IMG/VR virus record: IMGVR_UViG_3300031707_000080
Coordinates: 1 to 36,613 of that record
Length of the DNA: 36,613 nt
Strand: one strand, 5' to 3'
Source of the DNA: a virus
How positions within the stretch are numbered: position 1 is the stretch's first letter; each line of letters starts with the position of its first letter. The notes beneath the pieces were generated by a model that saw nothing but the letters and a program-made list of their open reading frames with translations, made no database searches and had not been told where the DNA came from. Shown here one piece after another: positions 392-26,863 of this stretch. A program made the position numbers and the translations under genes.

Positions 392-519
392 GCCTGCTCA
401 CCGATCTCGTGGAGCTTGGGATCAAGGTGGCCGACAAGCTCCTGCAGCAAGTTCCGAAGAAGCGAAAGCGACCGGCTCCGGTGGTCGCTCCAATCACCGA
501 CAAGGATCTGGGCAAGTGA
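388..519 (+). CDS. small basic protein of unknown function
   Basis: A 43-residue protein starting at ATG 388, which overlaps the previous stop (ATGA), and ending in TGA that overlaps the GTG start of the next gene. It has an amphipathic N-terminal helix (LLTDLVELGIKVADKLLQQ) and then a strongly basic, Pro-rich stretch (PKKRKRPAP). No family recognised. Its size and tight overlaps with both neighbours support it as a real gene. Confidence 0.5.
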   Translation: MSLLTDLVELGIKVADKLLQQVPKKRKRPAPVVAPITDKDLGK

Positions 520-1124
520 ACACAGAAGAAGCTGCGGTTGAGTGGTGCGCGCTTTCCAAGCTGGTGACCTGGGACAAGAATCCGCGCCGCTGGCGAGCTT
601 CAAGCCTCCGCGTCAAGCGCTCAATCGAGCAGTTCGGGTTCGGCGCTCCGCTGGTGGCGCGGCGCTCGGACATGCGTATCCTGGCTGGCCACGCTGCGTA
701 TGGCGCGGCGAAGATGCTGGGGATGCGGCAGGTTCCGGTGCGTTTCCTGGAACTGTCTGACACCGAAGCCGATGCGCTCACGCTTGCTGACAATCGGCTC
801 GGTTCCCTGGTAGCCTGGGACGAGGACGTGCTCCGGGGATTACTTCAGAGCCTCGATGCTGGCACTCGTGAGGTGACAGGATGGCTGGAAAACGACTTGG
901 ACAAGCTGCTGGGGGAAACGTCCCGGCGGGAAGAACTGGCGCTCGCAAGGGGAAAGACCCCAGCGGAGTCGGGGTACGCGGCGAGCGACACGGCGAGCAT
1001 CGTGCTGATCTGGCCAGCGGCTCAGGTGACCGACGTGCAGGCGCGAATGGCCAAGGGCATGAAGCGGCTCAAGCTCCAGACGCGGGAGCAGTACATCGAG
1101 AAACTGCTGACGATGTTCCTGTAG
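516..1124 (+). CDS. ParB/Srx-like nuclease-domain protein 1
   Basis: A 202-residue protein with an N-terminal ParB/sulfiredoxin-type domain (about residues 8-115): the opening LVTWDKNPRRW, the segment SIEQFGFGAPLV, the catalytic-loop-like AGHAAYGAA and the later ALTLADNRL are the usual phage ParB-domain blocks. The C-terminal half (about 120-202) is not recognised. The GTG start at 516 overlaps the previous stop (GTGA), and the similar ParB-like gene at 1145 follows immediately. Such domains in phages are often neighbours of DNA modification genes (established context), so a role in DNA binding or modification is more likely than plasmid partitioning. Biochemical activity, whether nuclease, NTP binding or other, cannot be read from the sequence. 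Confidence 0.8.
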   Translation: MNTEEAAVEWCALSKLVTWDKNPRRWRASSLRVKRSIEQFGFGAPLVARRSDMRILAGHAAYGAAKMLGMRQVPVRFLELSDTEADALTLADNRLGSLVAWDEDVLRGLLQSLDAGTREVTGWLENDLDKLLGETSRREELALARGKTPAESGYAASDTASIVLIWPAAQVTDVQARMAKGMKRLKLQTREQYIEKLLTMFL

Positions 1125-1144
1125 CTGGCTCATGGGCAGACCGG

Positions 1145-1699
1145 GTGTCCCTGGTCCCATGGGCAGACAACCCACGGGTGATCACCGACGAGGCAGTCGC
1201 GGCTGTGGCAGCCAGCATCGAGCGGTTCGGGTTCGGGCGTCCGGTGGTCGCTCGCGCAGAGGACCGCATGGTGATCGCTGGCCATGTGAGGCTCCGGGCG
1301 GCTGCCTTGCTCGGGATACGTCGCATCCCTGTTCGGTTCATTCATGTGACCCGGGAACAGGCTGTGGCGCTGGCCATTGCCGACAACCGGCTGCAGGAGT
1401 TGACCCCTTGGGAGGACGAGGACCTGGCGGGTATCTTGCGCGGGCTCGCGACGCTCGGCGTGAGCGATGGACTTGGCTGGTCGCGGTCGGAGGTCCAGGC
1501 GTTGCTGGACGCCGACGACGGCCTGACCGCTGGCGACGATGTCGGCGGAAGCGGGCTGCGCCAGATCGTGCTCAAGTGGCCAAAGGCTGAGTTCTCCAGC
1601 GTCGTAGAAGCGCTGGACCGGGCGGCGGTTCGCTACGGCTGCACCGACCGCTCAGCGCTGGTGCTCAAGCTGATCGAGTTGCACGAGGCGATGGAGTAG
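1145..1699 (+). CDS. ParB/Srx-like nuclease-domain protein 2
   Basis: About 184 residues from GTG 1145, giving the N-terminus MSLVPWADNPRV that matches the usual start of these domains. The open frame extends further upstream but there it only overlaps gene 516 and has no ParB-like sequence. The same blocks as in the upstream paralogue are present: SIERFGFGRPVV, AGHVRLRAA and ALAIADNRL. The C-terminal part carries a WPKAEF stretch resembling the WPAAQV stretch of the first copy, which suggests the two arose by tandem duplication. No good ribosome site is visible, so translation may be coupled to the upstream gene. It sits directly upstream of the dioxygenase that opens the base-modification cassette. 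Confidence 0.75.
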   Translation: MSLVPWADNPRVITDEAVAAVAASIERFGFGRPVVARAEDRMVIAGHVRLRAAALLGIRRIPVRFIHVTREQAVALAIADNRLQELTPWEDEDLAGILRGLATLGVSDGLGWSRSEVQALLDADDGLTAGDDVGGSGLRQIVLKWPKAEFSSVVEALDRAAVRYGCTDRSALVLKLIELHEAME

Positions 1700-1701
1700 T
1701 T

Positions 1702-2529
1702 GTGCGCGTTGACCTGAAACTGGTCCACGGCAACGACGGCAGCGACGGCAGCGACTTCGTAGCGTGCGCGGTTCAGCAGAGCGACTACGACACGGTGCTG
1801 CGTCCTGGCGCTGAGCCGCTGGCGCTCTATCACGGCGGCCACCTGGTCGCCCTAGTCATGTCCTGGCCAAGCGGCGGTCACATGCTCGCGGCGGCTCGCT
1901 CGCTCCGCTACACGCACACGTCGCGCTCCGGCGGGATGCTCAGCGACTCGCGCACGTTTGGTTTCTCACCTCGCCTGGTGGTGCGTCGGGAGCAGTGCTC
2001 CGAATGCGCAACCTCATCCGAGTATCCGCTGGCGACCGAGGCGTTCTACGCTGGCGCGGCGATAGCTCACGCGGAGTTCCTGCGGAACGTGCCTGAGCGG
2101 GCGCTCCTGCAGGCGACGCGCATCGCGCAGGAGGTCGGCGCGTGCTGGCGGATTCGCAACTCGATGTTCACCGGCTGCATTGTCAACCGTAGCTCCGCGC
2201 TCATGTACCACCGCGACGGCGGCAACTTTTCCGACACCTGGAATGCGCAGTTCACCCTGGCCGAGACCGGCGTGATCGGCGGGCTTTTCGTGCTGCCAGA
2301 GTTTCGCGTGGCGCTCGATCTGCGCGACACGCTCATGTTTCTCGACGCCAGCAAGTGGGTCCACGGCGTCACCAGGATCTCGGGTCGCGGCAACCGCTAC
2401 TCGGTGGTCTACTTCGCAACGGCTGGGATGGCTCGGTGCGAGCGCACGGTCGATCTTGAGATGGCAAGGGCTCGGCAGAAGCGAGCGGGCAGGGAAAGCG
2501 CCAAGGCGCATGGGGGCGATGATGAGTGA
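1702..2529 (+). CDS. TET/JBP-type 2-oxoglutarate/Fe(II) dioxygenase (DNA base hydroxylase)
   Basis: A 275-residue protein whose C-terminal half carries the full set of 2-oxoglutarate/Fe(II) dioxygenase residues: H170 and D172 in YHRDGG, then GGLFVLPEF, H221 in WVHGVTRI, and R232 in NRYSVVYF. The GGLFVLP strand and HGVTRI...RYSVVYF ending are typical of the TET/JBP family, which hydroxylates the 5-methyl group of thymine (JBP) or 5-methylcytosine (TET) in DNA. The N-terminal 150 residues, with a CSEC cysteine pair, are not assigned. GTG start two bases after the ParB-like gene; the stop overlaps the kinase start. It is expected to make the hydroxymethyl group used by the kinase next door. Thymine versus 5-methylcytosine cannot be decided, though no cytosine methyltransferase is obvious in the cassette. 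Confidence 0.75.
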   Translation: MRVDLKLVHGNDGSDGSDFVACAVQQSDYDTVLRPGAEPLALYHGGHLVALVMSWPSGGHMLAAARSLRYTHTSRSGGMLSDSRTFGFSPRLVVRREQCSECATSSEYPLATEAFYAGAAIAHAEFLRNVPERALLQATRIAQEVGACWRIRNSMFTGCIVNRSSALMYHRDGGNFSDTWNAQFTLAETGVIGGLFVLPEFRVALDLRDTLMFLDASKWVHGVTRISGRGNRYSVVYFATAGMARCERTVDLEMARARQKRAGRESAKAHGGDDE

Positions 2530-3046
2530 GTCGGTGGCACTCTGGCTGGTGGGCGCTCCTGGCGTGGGCAAGACGGCGGTCGCTCGCTCAATCCTGGGGA
2601 TGTATGGTGCCTACACGCTCCACCCGTCGCCCAAGTGGACGATCGGTGACGGCGTGGTCGCTGCAGGGCACTACACCGGCTCGGCGTTCGACGGCGCTGA
2701 CACGGTGCCCTACTCCGGCGCGAAGGCGGCGCTCGACTACTGGCGCGCTCACCTGCTCCAAAGCGCTCGGCTGACGATCTTCGACGGCGATCGGTTCAGC
2801 GATGCGGGGTGTTTTGAGCGGGTGCTTGCAACGGACGTGTCGGTGCGCATCGTGCTCCTGACCGCGAGCGAGGACGTGCTCGGCGCTCGGCGCTCGATGC
2901 GCGGCTCCACCCAGAGCGTCACCTGGATGAAGGGCCGCGCCACGAAGGCGGCTCGCTTCGCTCGGCTCGACCCTGGCGCGCTGCGCATGGAGTCGGCTGG
3001 TACGCCTGACGACCTGGCAACCGCGATCCTCGCGGCGCTTTGCTGA
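2522..3046 (+). CDS. P-loop kinase, probable 5-hydroxymethyl-pyrimidine DNA kinase
   Basis: A 174-residue P-loop kinase: Walker A GAPGVGKT at residues 11-18, a TIFDGDRFSD block that may hold the metal or base-binding acid, and a lid-like basic segment (TWMKGRATKAARFA). Small P-loop kinases next to amino acid:DNA transferases phosphorylate 5-hydroxymethyluracil in DNA so that the phosphate becomes the leaving group for the next step (established for thymidine hypermodification phages). The position between a TET/JBP-type oxygenase and the transferase fits that role. ATG 2522 is preferred to ATG 2519 because GGGGG at 2512-2516 then lies five bases upstream. It overlaps the preceding gene by eight bases and the next start is TGATG-coupled. 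Substrate assignment rests on context. Confidence 0.72.
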   Translation: MSESVALWLVGAPGVGKTAVARSILGMYGAYTLHPSPKWTIGDGVVAAGHYTGSAFDGADTVPYSGAKAALDYWRAHLLQSARLTIFDGDRFSDAGCFERVLATDVSVRIVLLTASEDVLGARRSMRGSTQSVTWMKGRATKAARFARLDPGALRMESAGTPDDLATAILAALC

Positions 3047-4092
3047 TGGAGCCGCTGTCAATCTTCACCGAGTCCACGCTCGACCGCTCGGTGAGCCGTT
3101 GGGAGGACCGGCTGCACGATCTGACTCCGGTGGAGCGGATCGGCGGGCTGCAGTTCAAGCGCGACGAGTGCTTTGCTCCGCTCGGCTATGGCGGGATCAA
3201 TGGCGGCAAGGTGCGGCAGCTAGTCTACCTGGTTTCCGACTACCTGAGAACCGCGCCTGAGCCCGGGCTGATCCTGGCTGCCAGCGTCCTGTCTCCACAG
3301 CTGGGCCGCGTCGCGGCGATCGGCGCGCACTTCGGGATCCCGGTTACGGTGGTGCTCGGAACGTCGCCTGCGAAGGCGCGGCGCAAGCACGTCAACGTCG
3401 AAATCGCCCACGGGCTCGGTGTGCGCTTTGTGCAGGCCGGTGTTGCCTACAACCCGGCGCTGCAGGCCAAGGCCAGGGAAGTCCTGCGAGAGCAGCCTGG
3501 CAGCTACATGCTGGAGTACGGCTTGAGCGTCGAAGGCTCCGACGAGCGTGTCGAGGCGTTCTATCGGTTCGCGGGCGAGCAGGCCGCAAACCTGCCAGAC
3601 GTGGAGACACTGATCCTCCCGGGCGGCTCCTACAACACCACGGTCGCGGTGCTTTACGCCATTGCCAGGAATCCTCCTGCGAGACTGCGCAACGTCGTGG
3701 TGTTCGGGATTGCCCCACCACGCCTGCCTTGGTTAGAGGACCGGCTGGAGCGCATCGGAGCGATCTCGGGCGTGTCGATCTCGCGGATGTTCAGGCGGGA
3801 CTATCGCCACCACCGTGATGTTGAGGCGGCGTACAGCCGTCCCGGCGACGGGCCGATCAATCTCCTGCACTTCGACCTGCACTCCACCGGGTTCGCCAAG
3901 TGGGGCGACATGCTCCCGGCTGAGTATGCCGACGGTCGCCACACCCTGCACCTCCATCCCGGGTACGAGGGAAAGATCGCTCACTACCTCCGGCTCCACG
4001 CGGAGACGTTTGAGCCGTTCCTGCGAGATGCGTGCTTCTGGATTGTCGGGATTGAGCCAAGGTTCGACGTGATGAAAGGGTTCCTGAGATGA
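3046..4092 (+). CDS. PLP-dependent fold-type II enzyme (ACC deaminase/D-cysteine desulfhydrase-like)
   Basis: A 348-residue protein resembling fold-type II PLP enzymes of the aminocyclopropane-carboxylate deaminase/D-cysteine desulfhydrase group. The N-terminal QFKRDECFAPLGYGG leads into NGGKVRQL, where K55 is the expected Schiff-base lysine, and LPGGSYNTT (about 191-199) is the cofactor-phosphate loop. The C-terminal third (FDLHSTGFAKWGDM onward) is unlike the metabolic enzymes and may bind DNA or a modified base. In known thymidine hypermodification pathways PLP enzymes decarboxylate or rearrange the amino acid attached to the base; I infer that job here because the gene lies between the base kinase and the transferase. 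TGATG coupling upstream and ATGA overlap downstream make it part of the same operon. Confidence 0.72.
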   Translation: MEPLSIFTESTLDRSVSRWEDRLHDLTPVERIGGLQFKRDECFAPLGYGGINGGKVRQLVYLVSDYLRTAPEPGLILAASVLSPQLGRVAAIGAHFGIPVTVVLGTSPAKARRKHVNVEIAHGLGVRFVQAGVAYNPALQAKAREVLREQPGSYMLEYGLSVEGSDERVEAFYRFAGEQAANLPDVETLILPGGSYNTTVAVLYAIARNPPARLRNVVVFGIAPPRLPWLEDRLERIGAISGVSISRMFRRDYRHHRDVEAAYSRPGDGPINLLHFDLHSTGFAKWGDMLPAEYADGRHTLHLHPGYEGKIAHYLRLHAETFEPFLRDACFWIVGIEPRFDVMKGFLR

Positions 4093-5201
4093 TGCGGATC
4101 GGACGCCAATGCGCGCTCAACGACGAGGCTGAAATGGCGACGCTGATGCCGGGGCAAGACTTCCGGCTGGCTCGCTACCGGCGCGAAGTGTTCCTACGGT
4201 TCTACGAGTTCCACTTGCGCTACGGCACGCACCCGGGCTGCGTCTACTTGCTCATGCCATCGCTCGCGGAGTCGGAGGGCTGGAGCCTGGAGGAACGCTT
4301 GTGGTTCGCTTTCATCAACGGCAACACCCAGAATCCGGTCACCTCCTGGCTCATCTTCAGGGCGTTCCCATCGGTGCGCGGGCTCGACCTGGCGGCGTTC
4401 ACATCCTGGTTTGCATCGCACTATGACGATCTCGCGTTCGACACCGACCGGCGCTACCACAAGAAAGAATTCGTGCAGGCCGTCGCCTGCTACCTGGGGC
4501 TCACCGAGGGCGGCGAGCAGGCGGCGTATTTCCAGCGCTTCGAAGTCGGATCACCGGAGCAAAACTTTGATGCGCTCTGGCCGGTGCTCATGCGGGAGTT
4601 CCACTCATTCGGGAGGCTGTCGGCATACTCCTACGCGGAGTACCTGGCGATCAGCGGCGTTCCGGTGCAGTGCTCCCAGCTGTTCCTGGAGGATCAGTCG
4701 GGCTCGCGATCTCACCGCAACGGGCTCTGCAAGGTGCTCGGGCGCGATGACTTGGACTGGCACGCCAGCAACCCGGGATTCAACGGAGACTACTCGCTGG
4801 TCCTACCCTGGCTGGTCGAGGAGAGCGCGGCGTTGCTGGACGAGGCTCGGGCTCGGACGCTCCACCCGCACGCCGGATACTTCACCCTGGAGTCGGCGCT
4901 TTGCACGTTCAAGTCCTGGCACCGACCCAACCGGCGTTACGCGAACTGCTACGCGGACATGCTGCATGACCGCATCGTGGCTGGCGAGCGGGCGCATGGT
5001 CCGCTCCCGGTGTTCTGGGCTGCGCGCAAAGCGCTCCCGGCTCCGCTGCGGCTGGAGTCGAATCCTGGTGACCCGGGCTGCGTTCCGGCGAAGCAGAACG
5101 TCTACCGCGAGACCGGCCAGATCGTGATGATGGAACACGACTGGCCGTGTTTCGCCAGCGACTTTGGCGCTCGGGTGCGGCGACTCCAGGGCTCCGCTTG
5201 A
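4089..5201 (+). CDS. amino acid:DNA transferase-like protein (aGPT-pyrophosphorylase/HMUDK-helical family)
   Basis: A 370-residue protein with the hallmark block FAFINGNTQNP (residues 73-83), preceded by RFYEFHLRYGTHPG and LMPSLAE and followed by a long helical body. This pattern is that of the amino acid:DNA transferase/alpha-glutamyl-putrescinyl-thymine pyrophosphorylase group, DNA-glycosylase-like helical proteins that replace the phosphate on 5-phosphomethyl-pyrimidine in DNA with an amino acid or polyamine. It is the fourth gene of the cassette, overlapping the PLP enzyme by four bases, and is followed after 65 bases by an intrinsic terminator. The donor molecule cannot be read from the sequence; glycine, glutamate or a polyamine are known in relatives. 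Family call from recalled motifs, not a search. Confidence 0.7.
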   Translation: MMRIGRQCALNDEAEMATLMPGQDFRLARYRREVFLRFYEFHLRYGTHPGCVYLLMPSLAESEGWSLEERLWFAFINGNTQNPVTSWLIFRAFPSVRGLDLAAFTSWFASHYDDLAFDTDRRYHKKEFVQAVACYLGLTEGGEQAAYFQRFEVGSPEQNFDALWPVLMREFHSFGRLSAYSYAEYLAISGVPVQCSQLFLEDQSGSRSHRNGLCKVLGRDDLDWHASNPGFNGDYSLVLPWLVEESAALLDEARARTLHPHAGYFTLESALCTFKSWHRPNRRYANCYADMLHDRIVAGERAHGPLPVFWAARKALPAPLRLESNPGDPGCVPAKQNVYRETGQIVMMEHDWPCFASDFGARVRRLQGSA

Positions 5202-7811: not shown

Positions 7812-7910
7812 ATTTTACCGGGCACTCGCTTTTCGGCAGTGCTTTCCCTTGCGTTCGGGAAACAGCCGCACTAGTTTCAGCTTTGTCGACGTTGTGTCGG
7901 CGGTAAGGAG
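7812..7910 (+). promoter_or_regulatory. promoter-hairpin-RBS module B (for the MoxR gene)
   Basis: -35 TTGCGT (7849-7854), 17-base spacer, -10 TAGTTT (7872-7877). Seven bases later stem GTCGAC/GTCGGC (7885-7890 with 7896-7901, one G-U pair) and TAAGGAG (7904-7910), seven bases before ATG 7918. Upstream TTTTACCGGGCA and CTCGCTTTTC (7825-7834) match module A at the same distance from the -35. Confidence 0.75.
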
Positions 7911-7917
7911 TTTCGCA

Positions 7918-9066
7918 ATGGAATGTCAATCTGAGGTTCGCGGGAAGTTTTTGGCGCTGAAGTCGGCGCTCAACGGTCAGTTCATTGAGCGCTCGGGCGT
8001 CATCACCGGGCTCATGACGGCTCTGGTCGCTCGGCAGCACGTCCTGCTCCTGGGGCCGCCAGGCACCGGCAAGTCGGCTCTGGCGAACGCTATGTGCGGC
8101 GCGCTCAGCGGCGCGGAGTTCTTTCAGTGGCTCCTGACCCGCTACTCCACGCCCGAGGAAATCTACGGACCCGTCGCTCTCTCGGCGCTCAAGATGGACA
8201 AGTTCAAGCGTGTCACCACGCACAAGCTGCCGGAGGCGCACGTTGCTTTCCTGGACGAAATCTTCAAGGCGAATTCCGCCATCCTCAACTCGCTCCTGAC
8301 CGTGGTCAACGAACGCAAGTTCCACAACAACGGTGGCGCGGTCAACATCCCGCTGGAGATGGTGGTCGGCGCGTCTAACGAGCTTCCCGAGTCGGATGAA
8401 TTGGGCGCACTGTTCGACCGTTTCCTCCTGCGGTTCTGGGTCGAGCCGCTGCAGTCGGATGCCAGCTTCGTTGACCTGCTTATGGCCACCGAGCCGAGCA
8501 TCGGCGGTGTCTCGCTCACGATGGACGAGTTGCACCAGGCGCAAAACGAAGCGGCAGCGCTCCCGGTCAATCGGGCGGTCGCGGAAGCGCTTGCCAACAT
8601 GCGTCGCGAAATCGGCGCGGCTGGGCTCCCCCAAGCCTCAGACCGTCGCTGGCGCGCAGCTGTGTCGCTGCTTCGCTCGGCTGCCTGGCTCGCGGGCGAC
8701 GCGCAGGTCGGCTCAGACCACTTCGAATGCCTGGCTGATGCGCTCTGGAGCGACCCTGAGCAGCGCGACGCGGTTCGCAAGATCGTCATGCAGCACTGTG
8801 CCTCCGGCGTGGCAGAGGGCCGCGCGGTCTACGACGGCATCGCGGACTTGATCGCTCGTATCCCGGCGAACCCGGGCGACGCTCGCACGACGGCTCTGGC
8901 GACCGCCAGCAAGGAGGCTCGGCGCGCTCAGGAGGCTCTGACCAAGCTGCACGCGGAAGCTGCCTCCGCTGCGACGCGGGAGGGTCTGACCCGGCTCATC
9001 GCGGACATGGATGCCCTGGTGGCTCCGGTGCGCGCGGAGGCTCGCAAGGCGCTCGGGCTCGGCTGA
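7918..9066 (+). CDS. MoxR/RavA-type AAA+ ATPase
   Basis: A 382-residue AAA+ ATPase of the MoxR group. Walker A GPPGTGKS is at residues 46-53, the Walker B block VAFLDE at 109-114 is followed by IFKANSAILNSLL, then NERKF, sensor 1 GASNELPE and the arginine-finger segment FDRFLLRF, all closely RavA-like. The C-terminal third is helical and Ala-rich. MoxR ATPases act with von Willebrand A proteins as chaperone-like complexes that insert metal cofactors or remodel partners; the VWA partner is the next gene (9255). It has its own promoter module B, and a hairpin follows its stop, so the pair is transcribed as two units. The phage function is unknown; remodelling of replication, packaging or host complexes is possible. 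Confidence 0.88.
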   Translation: MECQSEVRGKFLALKSALNGQFIERSGVITGLMTALVARQHVLLLGPPGTGKSALANAMCGALSGAEFFQWLLTRYSTPEEIYGPVALSALKMDKFKRVTTHKLPEAHVAFLDEIFKANSAILNSLLTVVNERKFHNNGGAVNIPLEMVVGASNELPESDELGALFDRFLLRFWVEPLQSDASFVDLLMATEPSIGGVSLTMDELHQAQNEAAALPVNRAVAEALANMRREIGAAGLPQASDRRWRAAVSLLRSAAWLAGDAQVGSDHFECLADALWSDPEQRDAVRKIVMQHCASGVAEGRAVYDGIADLIARIPANPGDARTTALATASKEARRAQEALTKLHAEAASAATREGLTRLIADMDALVAPVRAEARKALGLG

Positions 9067-9081
9067 GCGGGGCTCCTGGTC

Positions 9082-9107
9082 GGTGCCCGGGGCTAACTCC
9101 GGGCACC
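9082..9107 (+). terminator. GC hairpin after the MoxR gene
   Basis: GGTGCCCGG (9082-9090) pairs perfectly over nine bases with CCGGGCACC (9099-9107), loop GGCTAACT, 15 bases after the stop. No T-run follows. Together with a new promoter just downstream it looks like a transcription-unit boundary. Confidence 0.55.
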
Positions 9108-9162
9108 TGCCAGTGCCACTCGGCTCTGGCCTGGTGGTACTGGCGGGTGGTTTCAGGCGCAC

Positions 9163-9244
9163 GTCGCTTTTCTTGCGTTCGGATATTGCGGTCGGCAGTG
9201 ACTTGGCATATGACTGCTTTGCTGGCTCGGCGCTGGCGGGAAGG
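9163..9244 (+). promoter_or_regulatory. promoter-hairpin-RBS module C (for the VWA gene)
   Basis: Box GTCGCTTTTC (9163-9172), -35 TTGCGG (9186-9191), 17-base spacer, -10 TATGAC (9209-9214). Six bases later stem GCTGGC/GCTGGC (9221-9226 with 9232-9237, two G-U pairs) and GGGAAGG (9238-9244). The stem sequence differs from modules A and B but pairing and position are kept. Confidence 0.7.
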
Positions 9245-9254
9245 CAAATGAGAG

Positions 9255-10745
9255 ATGAACAAGGATTTGCAGAGGGAAATGGTCGCGGGAGCGGACGTCA
9301 CGCTGGACGTGGGCAAGTGGGTTCGGCGGCTGGCGGGCGAGGAAATCGCGCAGGCCGGTAGCTTTGCCGATGCGGCGGGCGCTGGCGCTGGCGATAAGCT
9401 GTCTGGGTTTGTCGGGTTCAATCGCGACGTGTTCGCCAGCCTGTATGGGCTCGGCGTCAATGCCGTTGAAGCTCCGGCAGCTGGCACCGAGTGGGCTCGG
9501 CGTGTGCTCGAAATCGCCAACGAGCTACCGGAGTGGCAGGCGTTGCAGGCTCGGGCGGCTGGCGACCCGTGGCGTTGTGGCCTGGCGGCTGGCGAGGCGG
9601 TCGAGTCGCTTTCCAAGGTGCTCGGTGACCTGGCATCCAAGATGCCCGAGGGCGTGTCGAAGGCTGACGAGGAAGCGCAAGAAGCCGAAGCGGCTGCGGA
9701 CGAGCCTGGTGCCAGCGACGAAGTGACCGAATGTGCTCGCGGGCTGCGCGCTCAGGCCGATGCGCTTGCGGCGAAAGCCGACCAGGTTGCGGGCGAGGTT
9801 CTGGCTTCTGGCCAGGGCGAGAGCAAGGTCCGCAAGGCGCTCCGGCTGGCCAGCAAGGCGGCTGAAGAAGCATGCGACGAGGTTGACGCGGCGATGGCTG
9901 GGCTTGGCCATGGCGCGGGCGCTGGTGCGCTGTCGGCGGTCAAGGCTCCGGTCGAGCAGGTTCGCGCGGCGCTCCGGTCAGACGCTCGGCTGGCGCGCAT
10001 CGCAGCAGTAGCTGGTCGAGTTCGCTGCAGCGCCAAGAAGGCGCAGCAGGGCAAGCGTGTGGTCGGTGGTCGCGAGGAAATCGCAGACGTCGAAATCGGG
10101 TCGGACGTGCAGCGGCTCCTGCCTAGCGAATCGGTGTTCCTGGCCGACGACGACCTGGAGCTACTGCTACTCCGCAAGCTGGTAGAGGGTCAGGCGATGC
10201 AGTACCGGCTCCAGGGTCGCGAGCGAGCCGAGCGTGGTCCGCTGGTGGTGCTCCTGGACGGCTCCGGCTCCATGTCGGGCGCTCGGCACGAGTGGGCTTG
10301 CGGCGTTGCTCTGGCGCTCCTGGAGGTTGCTGCGCGGCAGAAGAGGGCGTTCTCAGTGGTCCACTTCGATGACGGCGTGCGGGCGACGTTCGACTTCCTG
10401 AAGCCCCGGGCCGCGTCGCTCGCGGACGTGGTGTCGGCGGTGTCGTATTTCTCCAACGGCGGGACCGACGTGCAGGGCGCGCTCCGCGCCGCTGGCGAGC
10501 GCATTCGCAAGGCTCCCGGGGCGCTCCGCGACGCTGACGTGGTCCTGGTGGGCGATGGTGAGTCGGGCGACTTCACTGTCGAGGTTCGGGCGCTGAAGGC
10601 TGCCGGAGTGGCGACCTACGGCGTGGCAATCGGTGCGTCCTGGTCGCTGGCCAATCGCTCGGTGCTGGCTGGCTACGAGGAAGTCACGGACGCGCAGATC
10701 AAGGGCGGCTCAGAGGGCGCGATGACAAAGGTTCTGGCGCTGTAG
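9255..10745 (+). CDS. von Willebrand factor A (VWA) domain protein, partner of the MoxR ATPase
   Basis: A 496-residue protein. The C-terminal 170 residues form a VWA domain with an intact metal-ion-dependent adhesion site: DGSGS at 335-339, the Thr in GGTD, and Asp in LVGDGES. The N-terminal 300 residues are Ala/Glu-rich and mostly helical, with a probable coiled coil around 130-210, as in ViaA/CoxE-type partners of MoxR ATPases. Start ATG 9255 is preceded by GGGAAGG at 9238-9244 from module C; a competing ATG at 9248 is in another frame and gives no sensible product. It is downstream of the MoxR gene but has its own promoter. VWA and MoxR partners usually form an ATP-driven remodelling complex. 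Confidence 0.85.
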   Translation: MNKDLQREMVAGADVTLDVGKWVRRLAGEEIAQAGSFADAAGAGAGDKLSGFVGFNRDVFASLYGLGVNAVEAPAAGTEWARRVLEIANELPEWQALQARAAGDPWRCGLAAGEAVESLSKVLGDLASKMPEGVSKADEEAQEAEAAADEPGASDEVTECARGLRAQADALAAKADQVAGEVLASGQGESKVRKALRLASKAAEEACDEVDAAMAGLGHGAGAGALSAVKAPVEQVRAALRSDARLARIAAVAGRVRCSAKKAQQGKRVVGGREEIADVEIGSDVQRLLPSESVFLADDDLELLLLRKLVEGQAMQYRLQGRERAERGPLVVLLDGSGSMSGARHEWACGVALALLEVAARQKRAFSVVHFDDGVRATFDFLKPRAASLADVVSAVSYFSNGGTDVQGALRAAGERIRKAPGALRDADVVLVGDGESGDFTVEVRALKAAGVATYGVAIGASWSLANRSVLAGYEEVTDAQIKGGSEGAMTKVLAL

Positions 10746-24036: not shown

Positions 24037-24376
24037 GCAAGGCGAAAATCAGGATCGCGCTGACCACGAGGCGATGGTGCGGGACGTGGCGCGCACGCTG
24101 GAGTGCGACGAGGCGCTTCTGGCGTCGCTCAAGGCGGTGCTGAGCGCTTGCGTGGTTCAGGCGGGGCTGAAGAATCTACCACCCGCTGCGGTGGTCGCTT
24201 CGATGGCATCCCTCATGGGCGTCGGTGTGCGGCACTCGGCTACGCAGGAGGAATACATGATGCTGGTCGACATGATGTACTCTCTCAGGCTGGACCTGCA
24301 CGACAAGGGGCTGGCCAAGCGGGTGCTCATCGTGAATGGCCAGGAAACAACCTCCAAGCCTGGAGACGCGAACTGA
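24029..24376 (+). CDS. hypothetical protein
   Basis: A 115-residue helical protein from GTG 24029, eight bases upstream of the previous stop's end. Acidic N-terminus (SEQGENQDRADHEAM), then ALLASLKAVLSACVVQAGLK and EEYMMLVDMMYSLRLDLH. No family recognised. Coupled with the SpeD-like gene by TGATG (stop 24374-24376, start 24376). Confidence 0.5.
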   Translation: MSEQGENQDRADHEAMVRDVARTLECDEALLASLKAVLSACVVQAGLKNLPPAAVVASMASLMGVGVRHSATQEEYMMLVDMMYSLRLDLHDKGLAKRVLIVNGQETTSKPGDAN

Positions 24377-24867
24377 TGGAAGGCAAGCACGTCAAGGTTC
24401 TGGTGCGCGGGAACGCGATCAAGCTCGGCAACCCAGACCGGGTGCATGCTTTTCTCGGGCTCGCGGTAGAACGGCTCGGGATGCGCGAACTGACCGAGGC
24501 GCGGGTGATCGACGTGCCTCTCCAGGTTCGGGCGCTCGGCGCGGTTCCGTTTGAGGACGAGGGCGGCGTCACCGCAGAGGGGTTCGGCGTCGCTCGGGCG
24601 GTGCGGGGCACAGTGCGCAGTCTGGCCGTCTCCTGGCTCGCAGGGCTGGCTCAGACGGCTCCGGCGCTGGTGGGCTCGGTGGTGCTGTCAACGAGTCATG
24701 TAGCGATCCACACCTGGCCGTTGCGGCGGCTCGCGGTGATTGACGTCTACTCATGCCGCGACTTCGATGAAGCCCTCCTGGGGGAACTGGCCGAGTCATG
24801 GTTTGAAGCCGACCGGGTGCTGGTGCGCGACCTGTCGTGGTCGCTTTCCTGGGACGAGGGAGAATGA
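24376..24867 (+). CDS. SpeD-like pyruvoyl decarboxylase (S-adenosylmethionine decarboxylase homologue)
   Basis: A 163-residue protein with the core of pyruvoyl-dependent AdoMet decarboxylases: LSTSHVAIHTWP, in which S107 would be the self-cleaving serine that becomes pyruvoyl, H108 following it, and DVYSC with C127 as the second catalytic residue. The residue before S107 is Thr rather than the Glu typical of SpeD, and Leu rather than Glu follows TWP. Some SpeD homologues are known to have changed to ornithine or arginine decarboxylases, so polyamine or agmatine synthesis is as plausible as AdoMet decarboxylation. It precedes the ParB-methyltransferase fusion and PAPS-reductase-like gene. A link to an amine donor for DNA modification is inferred. 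Confidence 0.65.
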   Translation: MEGKHVKVLVRGNAIKLGNPDRVHAFLGLAVERLGMRELTEARVIDVPLQVRALGAVPFEDEGGVTAEGFGVARAVRGTVRSLAVSWLAGLAQTAPALVGSVVLSTSHVAIHTWPLRRLAVIDVYSCRDFDEALLGELAESWFEADRVLVRDLSWSLSWDEGE

Positions 24868-26006
24868 CCAAGCGCAAGACTGTTCTCGCGGGCGACGAGG
24901 CGGCGGTGTGGTGTCACCCGACCGAGTTGGCCCCGTGGCCAAAGAATCCGCGCCGCAACGACGGTGAGCCTGTCGAGGCTGTGATCGCCAGCATCAAGCG
25001 GTTCGGGTTCGGTTCCCCGATCACCGCTCGGCGCGCGAACAACGAGATCATCGGTGGGCATACGCGGTGGAAGGCTGCGACCGCTATGGGGCTCGACCGG
25101 GTGCCGGTGCGGTTCCTGGACCTGTCGGAAAAGGAGGCGCACTTGCTGGCGCTGGCCGACAACCGGCTCAACGAGAAGGCGGCGTGGGACGTTCCGATGC
25201 TGAAAGGCATCCTCGACACCGTGACAATCGGTGACGCGGCGCAGGTCGGGTTCAGCGCGGACGACGTGTCGGTGATGGCCGACCAGGTGATGGCCGAAGG
25301 CGGGCAGCTTGAACTGGTGCCTGACGGCCCTATCGTGGTGCAGCGGTGGCGAACGGCGCTCACGCGGCACACGCTCTCGATGCCTGCGAGGCTCCTGCTC
25401 CAGTATGCGCTGACCGGAAACGGGTTCATGGACTACGGCTGCGGTCGCGGTGACGACGTGCGGATTCTGCGCGCGGCTGGCGTCGACGCTCACGGGTGGG
25501 ATCCGCACTTCGCTCCGCTCGCACCAAAGGTCGAAGCGGGCGCGGTGAATCTCGGGTTTGTGCTCAACGTAATCGAGGACGTGGAGGCGCGTTCAGAGGC
25601 GTTGCTGGGGGCGTGGGCGCTCACGACGGGCGTCCTGTCGATCTCAGTGATCTGCGGCTCTGGTGCGGCTCTGGTGCGACCGAAGCGCTACAGCGACGGG
25701 GTGCTGACGAATCGCGGCACGTTCCAGCGGTTCTACTCTGCCGACGAGTTGCGCGAGTATGTCGGCCTGGTGCTCGGCGTCGACCCGGTGCAGGTGACAA
25801 CCGGCGTGGTCTACGCATTCCGCGACCCGGCGGCTGCGGAACTGTTCCTGGCCACTCGAAAAGTGCACGAGGCTCGGGTCGAGGCGCTGAAAGCGGACGG
25901 CAACCACCTGGTGGTGCAGGCGGTGCTGCCTGGCGACAAAGAGCGTGAGCGCGAGATGATCTGCGACATCGCAGAGGGGTGCGGTGGAACGTGGGAACTG
26001 AAGTAG
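24864..26006 (+). CDS. ParB-like domain fused to a DNA-phosphorothioation-associated-type methyltransferase
   Basis: A 380-residue two-domain protein. Residues about 18-115 are a ParB/Srx-type domain (LAPWPKNPRRND, SIKRFGFGSPI, GGHTRWKAA, LALADNRLN) like those at 516 and 1145. Residues about 150-340 are a Rossmann methyltransferase: MDYGCGRGDDV near 190 is the SAM loop, then GWDPHFAPL, NLGFVLNVIEDVEAR, SDGVLTNRGTFQRF and VVYAFRD, the order I know from phosphorothioation-associated putative methyltransferases (dnd_rel_methyl-like). ATG 24864 overlaps the SpeD-like stop as ATGA. It probably modifies DNA or guides modification; the enzymatic target is unknown. Family call from memory of motifs. 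Confidence 0.72.
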   Translation: MTKRKTVLAGDEAAVWCHPTELAPWPKNPRRNDGEPVEAVIASIKRFGFGSPITARRANNEIIGGHTRWKAATAMGLDRVPVRFLDLSEKEAHLLALADNRLNEKAAWDVPMLKGILDTVTIGDAAQVGFSADDVSVMADQVMAEGGQLELVPDGPIVVQRWRTALTRHTLSMPARLLLQYALTGNGFMDYGCGRGDDVRILRAAGVDAHGWDPHFAPLAPKVEAGAVNLGFVLNVIEDVEARSEALLGAWALTTGVLSISVICGSGAALVRPKRYSDGVLTNRGTFQRFYSADELREYVGLVLGVDPVQVTTGVVYAFRDPAAAELFLATRKVHEARVEALKADGNHLVVQAVLPGDKEREREMICDIAEGCGGTWELK

Positions 26007-26863
26007 AGCGGCTGGCTGGTCGGCGCGTCGTGGCAGCGATCAGCGGTGGCAAGGACTCGGCGGCAATGTCGCTGCACCTCACCGAGCTTGGCGTCGAGCA
26101 CGATAGGGTGTTCATGGACACGGGCTGGGAACGTCCTGCGACGTATGAATATCTGCGCGGGCCGCTGACCGAGAAGCTGGGGCCGATCGTGGAGGTCGGC
26201 AGACCCGGCGGAATGGTGCAGCTGGTGCGCGACAAAAAAATGTTCGCGGGGCGGATCGCGAGGTTCTGCACCGAGGAACTGAAGTTGGCTCCCATGAAAG
26301 CGTACATCCAGGGCCACGAGCATGACGTCGTCAACGCTGTAGGCGTGCGCGCTGCGGAATCCCTGTCCCGCGCAAAACTGACACCGTGGGAGTGGTCGAG
26401 CGGGCTCGATTGCGAGGTTTGGCGTCCGGTGCTCCGGTGGACGTTTGACGACGTGGTCGCGATACACAGGCGGCACGCCCTGGAGCCGAATCCGCTGTAT
26501 GCGCTCGGCGCTGAGCGTGTTGGGTGCTGGCCTTGCATATTTGCGCGCAAGGACGAGATCCGCTTGCTCGCGGAGATGGACCCGGCGCGCATCGCGGAGA
26601 TCGCTGCGCTGGAAACGGAGTTGGACGCTGGCCAGGCAATTCGTGCGGCTGCCAAAGGCGTGCCGGTGAAGCGGCGACCGACGTTTTTTTCTCGGCCAGA
26701 GTTCGCTGACGGCGTAGGGCACACGCCGATCGCCAGGGCTGTCGAATGGTCGCGCACGGCGCACGGCGGAAATCAATTTGAGCTTTTCCACGATCCCAGC
26801 AACGCGGGCTGCATGCGCTGGGGAATGTGCGACACGGGCGACGACAAGGAAGATGCCGAGTAG
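25991..26863 (+). CDS. PAPS-reductase/DndC-like adenylyl-sulfur-transfer family protein
   Basis: About 290 residues from GTG 25991 (GTG 25979 is also open; 25991 has GAGGGG eleven bases upstream). The PP-loop SGGKDS lies at residues 18-23, followed by VFMDTGWERP, then FCTEELKLAPM, and late CWPCIFARKDE and CMRWGMC blocks forming a cysteine site. PP-loop enzymes of the PAPS reductase/DndC family activate substrates with ATP and carry sulfur, as DndC does in DNA phosphorothioation. It overlaps the ParB-methyltransferase gene by 16 bases and the TerL start by 11. A role in sulfur-based DNA modification is a plausible inference; other tRNA or base thiolation is possible. Confidence 0.75.
   Translation: MGTEVERLAGRRVVAAISGGKDSAAMSLHLTELGVEHDRVFMDTGWERPATYEYLRGPLTEKLGPIVEVGRPGGMVQLVRDKKMFAGRIARFCTEELKLAPMKAYIQGHEHDVVNAVGVRAAESLSRAKLTPWEWSSGLDCEVWRPVLRWTFDDVVAIHRRHALEPNPLYALGAERVGCWPCIFARKDEIRLLAEMDPARIAEIAALETELDAGQAIRAAAKGVPVKRRPTFFSRPEFADGVGHTPIARAVEWSRTAHGGNQFELFHDPSNAGCMRWGMCDTGDDKEDAE

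Follow-up and report, generated by a model that had tools for sequence, protein, structure and literature searches.

The 36,613-base window analyzed here, which is the entire linear virus record IMGVR_UViG_3300031707_000080 (G+C ~65%), carries at positions 1702-5201 a compact four-gene cassette that likely encodes a post-replicative pathway for the hypermodification of thymine in DNA, with a TET/JBP-type oxygenase as its front end. All four open reading frames (ORFs) of this coupled unit are open and lie on the + strand where the preliminary description had placed them:

1702..2529, + strand: TET/JBP-type Fe(II)/2-oxoglutarate oxygenase, proposed thymine (DNA) 5-methyl hydroxylase (PF12851, phrog_6059, HxD...H...R)
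2519..3046, + strand: P-loop kinase of the Ploopntkinase3 family, proposed 5-hydroxymethyl-deoxyuridine (dU) DNA kinase (PF18751, Walker A)
3046..4092, + strand: fold-type II pyridoxal phosphate (PLP) enzyme of the ViI (Ackermannviridae) type, proposed decarboxylase of a DNA-linked amino acid (homology, K55, model)
4089..5201, + strand: amino acid:DNA transferase (ADDT, or aGPT-Pplase2), proposed to replace the phosphate on the base with an amino acid (PF18724, fold match)

The end of the oxygenase gene at 2529 overlaps the kinase ATG at 2519, the kinase and PLP genes meet in the junction TGATGG, in which base 3046 is both the last of the stop and the first of the ATG, and the PLP stop at 4092 in turn overlaps the ADDT ATG at 4089. 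Members of the TET/JBP family oxidize 5-methyl groups in DNA, and the substrate of ADDTs is 5-phosphomethyl-dU within DNA. In the pathway that we infer from these genes, the oxygenase would hydroxylate thymine in phage DNA at its 5-methyl group to give 5-hydroxymethyl-dU, standing in for the dUMP (deoxyuridine monophosphate) hydroxymethylase of phages ViI or M6; the kinase would phosphorylate this base to 5-phosphomethyl-dU; the ADDT would displace the phosphate with an amino acid; and the PLP enzyme would then act upon the attached amino acid, most likely by a decarboxylation that leaves a positively charged amine. An O-linked serine, as in ViI, would yield 5-(2-aminoethoxy)methyl-dU or a close relative, and seems more likely than the N-linked glycine of M6. 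The phage would presumably gain resistance to host nucleases. The known thymidine-hypermodifying phages alter their nucleotide pool ahead of replication; the cassette described here appears to make the entire base from ordinary thymine on DNA that is already complete.

The front end was examined in a survey of viral loci. Single-sequence scans of viral contigs matched only a second contig of the same virus, and further relatives were reached with alignment-based profiles; these scans, of which the best 80 matches each were taken, resulted in 158 further loci besides the second contig, which were searched with profiles for TET, PLP, ADDT, both kinase types, thymidylate synthase (TS), ParB, and others. 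Ninety loci carried ADDT, 39 of them with TET and 35 with TS, and none had both. Ploopntkinase3 was found in 35 of the 39 TET+ADDT loci, with the remaining four ending 51 to 917 bases past the ADDT gene. HMUDK was found in 33 of the 35 TS loci, whereas the HMUDK-helical profile, which was seeded from one sequence, matched nothing in any of the 39 TET+ADDT loci or in the window, whose kinase is of the Ploopntkinase3 type only. Fisher tests of TET vs. TS and of TET vs. HMUDK both gave p < 1e-11, values that overstate independence because many loci are kin, only the best 80 per scan were taken, and TET itself served as the query of one scan.

As noted in the preliminary description, no dUMP hydroxymethylase is visible: PF00303 is absent from the window, a linear and probably incomplete record. 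The same profile matched none of 28 TET-type viral records (24 four-gene records of up to 56 kb, and four lacking the PLP gene of up to 114 kb) and all four TS-type viral controls; among complete phages, it matched none of nine of the TET type and all four of the TS type (Montesquieu, M6, ViI, and Vibrio phage D506). This mutual exclusion of TET and the TS-type enzyme, in ADDT-bearing loci and in complete phage genomes alike, supports the earlier suggestion that the oxygenase replaces the hydroxymethylase. Taken together, TET with Ploopntkinase3 and the TS-like enzyme with HMUDK look like exclusive, exchangeable starters for the same ADDT and PLP tailoring enzymes.

The four genes TET, ADDT, PLP, and kinase occur on one strand in 24 loci, where they span 3.2-5.6 kb in four gene orders, and the order of the window (TET-kinase-PLP-ADDT) was found only in this virus. 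A tree of ADDT sequences placed the window virus with other TET+PLP loci (support 94) and paired Montesquieu, of the TS type, with Prince, of the TET type (support 99). One locus, L091 (894-5205), is apparently a hybrid cassette by its sequence affinities, with a TET front end, a PLP enzyme of the TS-type clade, and two ADDT genes, one of them from the TS-type clades. Such exchanges mean that at least four to five front-end changes are needed on the tree, a number drawn from quick trees that flag some long branches. As a separate observation, TET and Ploopntkinase3 also occur with no ADDT at all in L006, L010, L103, L104, L123, L140, L160, L164, L169, and L173, which include the complete phages Margaery and Kharcho.

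Profile searches agreed with the families proposed earlier for all four proteins (Tet_JBP/phrog_6059, Ploopntkinase3, PALP/phrog_3650, and ADDT/phrog_3271). The oxygenase residues H170, D172, H221, and R232, which had been singled out before any search was made, are invariant in ten phage TETs and constitute the HxD...H metal triad and the 2-oxoglutarate-binding arginine, with the HxD...H...R pattern matched by 98 of 99 oxygenase relatives. Against Tet_JBP (PF12851) the protein scored 23.0 bits (E 5e-5; curated cut-off 34.9 bits), and the TET of the isolate Prince likewise fell under the cut-off with 26.1 bits; against phrog_6059 the E value was 7e-28. Because the phage subfamily is generally low-scoring, we filed the oxygenase under the phage TET subfamily (phrog_6059) and not on the Pfam cut-off, and it is predicted to oxidize a pyrimidine 5-methyl group in DNA. 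The kinase matched Ploopntkinase3 (PF18751) above the cut-off (E 9e-7) and has the Walker A motif GAPGVGKT. Two database names were considered and set aside as mislabels, namely "queuine tRNA-ribosyltransferase", used by PHROGs and RefSeq for the phage TET family (phrog_6059), the catalytic residues of which are those of a 2-oxoglutarate oxygenase, and "terminase small subunit", used by PHROGs for the kinase family (phrog_800); both wrong-looking PHROG names recur in deposited phage records.

The ADDT matched PF18724 with 76.5 bits (E 3e-21; cut-off 26.2 bits) and phrog_3271 with an E value of 1e-71, and its nearest relatives in the phage collection are mycobacteriophage gp3 proteins (47% identity over 94%). 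The FINGNTQNP block by which this protein had first been recognized is indeed present, but it is not fully conserved across the wider family, the ViI type having FLWGCCYNA. Structure models were based on alignments of window and viral-contig sequences only. That of the ADDT (pLDDT, a predicted confidence, of 95.4) aligned with 8z2m at Z 16.7 and a root-mean-square deviation of 3.3 over 251 residues; 8z2m and 8z2n (Z 16.7 and 16.6 over 251-255 residues) were followed by a queuine salvage enzyme (Z 9.5) and DNA glycosylases (Z of at most 8). The structure 8z2m is the 5-phosphomethyl-2'-deoxyuridine glycinyltransferase of phage PaMx11, from a solved family that also includes M6 gp51. Sequence searches returned no solved relative of the ADDT, and the match, found by fold comparison only, thus lends independent support to the displacement step. 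A scan of bacterial and archaeal genome contigs for ADDT found two actinomycete metagenome-assembled genome (MAG) contigs, one with the full ParB-TET-ADDT-PLP-kinase set, probably viral. In L176 (6378-10625), binned in an Actinomycetota MAG, these five genes stand in a row, which hints at actinobacterial hosts.

For the PLP enzyme, the proposed catalytic lysine held up, with K55 invariant in 31 of 31 relatives, as are S83-P84-Q85. The match to PALP was below the cut-off (E 3e-7) and that to phrog_3650 was strong (E 8e-66); nearest in the phage collection are Ackermannviridae-type PLP proteins (about 31-36% identity over 98% of the length), a group that includes Vi01_182 of ViI. No relatives were found in plasmids, and a pattern scan of genome contigs from bacteria and archaea found none either. 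The model (pLDDT 93.4) has fold-type II, and the nearest solved structures are an ACC (1-aminocyclopropane-1-carboxylate) deaminase homologue and D-cysteine desulfhydrase (Z ~23), with a sequence-profile match to ACC deaminase at E 5e-7. PLP chemistry requires a primary amine, so an N-linked amino acid, such as the glycine of M6, would form no aldimine with PLP before an isomerase acts. Radical SAM (S-adenosylmethionine) proteins (PF04055) were absent from the window and from the 24 four-gene relatives; in the comparison phages, M6 had a match below the cut-off at gp53 and Vibrio phage D506 a match elsewhere in its genome. The absence of a radical-SAM match, together with the membership of the PLP enzyme in the ViI family, favors an amino acid linked by its side chain, such as serine. 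By analogy with ViI, the PLP enzyme probably acts on such a residue, and its product would be the decarboxylated amine.

Several observations weigh against the oxygenase-initiated pathway or parts of it. The contig taken by itself would leave room for a hydroxymethylase in its missing part, the Pfam score of the oxygenase lies under the curated cut-off, and the kinase shares only 22-32% identity with its relatives. Furthermore, the nearest solved ADDT uses glycine and not serine, and the solved fold-type II relatives of the PLP enzyme are deaminases or desulfhydrases and not decarboxylases. This last point, together with the modest identity to the ViI type (33-36%), suggests a different final step in which the PLP enzyme performs an elimination, a racemization, or some other change, resulting in a final base unlike that of ViI. 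Such a step would be compatible with the first three steps, and we regard it as possible, if somewhat unlikely: the homology to the ViI type is full-length, the invariant SPQ stands where ACC deaminase has what we take to be SNQ, and an elimination would reverse the attachment of serine.

As for the substrate, thymine is suggested by the lack of a methyltransferase and by the known companion enzymes, and 5-methylcytosine made by the host could serve instead. In that case the oxygenase might act on 5-methylcytosine whose methyl group comes from a host enzyme or from one encoded in the missing part, with the kinase and the ADDT building an amino-acid-bearing cytosine. Phage TETs active on 5-methylcytosine are known, according to PMC12730594, which cites Burke et al. 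(2021), and one related TET+ADDT pair (L136 and L137) does encode a C5-cytosine methyltransferase (PF00145). However, PF00145 was found neither in the window nor in any of the 24 TET+ADDT+PLP loci, nor in any of 13 phages, complete TET-type phages among them, and the pathways from which the ADDT and PLP families are otherwise known concern thymidine. Because the window and the 24 four-gene loci lack this methyltransferase, thymine is the likeliest substrate, and we consider a cytosine product improbable. Action of these genes on RNA or a free nucleotide rather than on phage DNA is very improbable, being suggested by database names only ("queuine tRNA-ribosyltransferase", which looks mislabeled) and standing against both the 2-oxoglutarate oxygenase residues and a transferase fold shared with an enzyme named for its 5-phosphomethyl-2'-deoxyuridine substrate.

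Post-replicative hypermodification of thymine is our preferred reading. The unit extends beyond the four genes, since it also includes one or two ParB-like genes that lie immediately upstream (516-1699):

516..1124, + strand: ParB-like protein 1 (ParB_N E 8e-6, phrog_620 E 1e-30)
881..1699, + strand: ParB-like protein 2, longest ORF (ParB_N E 2e-6, domain ~1172-1387; phrog_620 E 2e-31)

The true start of the second protein is probably inside this ORF, near or after 1124, and its stop at 1699 lies two bases ahead of the GTG start of the oxygenase at 1702. Upstream sequence of sufficient length was available for 100 TET loci, and in 91 of these a ParB match stood no more than 2.5 kb ahead of TET; none of 37 TS-type loci had one. 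Six four-gene loci that do have upstream sequence showed no ParB match, and ParB is therefore not obligatory. As a pointer to modification at selected sites, which had been raised earlier, the ParB-like neighbors are only a hint. One could speculate that they steer the oxygenase, such that an aminated, positively charged thymine made wholly on DNA, and at chosen sites only, would serve as a phage mark (for packaging, replication, or self-recognition) rather than as bulk protection; this we think quite improbable. A TG/TC preference in M6, ViI, and phiW-14 has been attributed to the kinase (PMC6449724).

With respect to the record itself, the window has phage-like gene content, including an exonuclease, a Sak4-like annealing protein, the single-stranded DNA-binding protein SSB, a replication initiator, the terminase large subunit, and a portal. 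The record ends shortly past the head genes and the second contig, 99.94% identical over 14,089 bases and carrying the same cassette, reaches 617 bases further left, so that the contig is probably incomplete. No tRNA genes were found in the 36,613 bases, and positions 1-25000 have no near DNA relative in the phage collection. Additional genes include an ORF at 24103-24867, the C-terminal part of which matches S-adenosylmethionine decarboxylase (AdoMet_dc E 5e-11) and which could bear on polyamines; a third ParB-like gene immediately followed by a PAPS-reductase-like gene (E 4e-22) at 24837-26863, just upstream of the terminase and possibly another DNA-related module; and a MoxR-type ATPase (bpMoxR E 5e-56) that adjoins a von Willebrand factor A protein at 7849-10745.

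Several known systems share parts of the cassette. Salmonella phage ViI (Vi01), which makes 5-NeOmdU and in which ~40% of thymidine is replaced by the modified base (PMC11721090), has an ADDT (Vi01_199) and a PLP enzyme (Vi01_182, orf00226) homologous to those of the window, but starts from a TS-like hydroxymethylase and has scattered genes, and between the ADDT of a ViI relative and that of the window the identity is only 27%. In Pseudomonas phage M6 and PaMx11 (5-NedU), an ADDT-family transferase of the same fold is adjoined by a PLP enzyme; M6 differs in that its PLP enzyme is very divergent and that it has both a radical-SAM-like protein and a TS-like enzyme. Its glycine is reportedly N-linked (Lee et al., 2021). 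Glutamicibacter phage Montesquieu has an ADDT immediately followed by a PLP enzyme (31% identity to that of the window) and a Ploopntkinase3 kinase, but with a TS-type hydroxymethylase and a helical HMUDK protein instead of TET.

In the actinophages Prince, CaiB, Tonitrus, LilMcDreamy, and Kozie, TET, ADDT, and kinase likewise stand close together, usually behind ParB. In these phages of Mycobacterium (Prince and LilMcDreamy), Rhodococcus (Tonitrus), Gordonia (CaiB), and Microbacterium (Kozie), the ParB-TET-ADDT-kinase module lies at the left end of the complete genome, that of Kozie having no annotated ParB. No ViI-type PLP enzyme was found in any of the five; its place is taken by a flavin adenine dinucleotide (FAD) oxidoreductase in Kozie and an Asp/Arg hydroxylase-like protein in LilMcDreamy. 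The order in Kozie (L007, 1-3273) is TET-ADDT-FAD oxidoreductase-kinase, which suggests a different tailoring of the amino acid. Other TET phages (Serendipitous and Bolt007) pair TET with a TET-associated glycosyltransferase.

Hypermodification initiated by TET/JBP proteins was reportedly predicted by Iyer et al. already in 2013. If the pathway is confirmed, it would offer a compact, pool-independent set of enzymes for putting amines on thymine in any DNA, as well as a direct test of the substrates of phage TETs. The preliminary description had regarded the combination as one not previously characterized, and this stands only in part: TET, kinase, and ADDT occur together in deposited mycobacterial, rhodococcal, gordonial, and microbacterial phages, and the Tonitrus module appeared in print in 2025 as a predicted system for thymidine hypermodification (PMC11955845), while the addition of a ViI-type PLP enzyme is less familiar. 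What seems new, if not categorically so, is the joining of the oxygenase front end to PLP tailoring of the ViI type, seen in 24 contigs.

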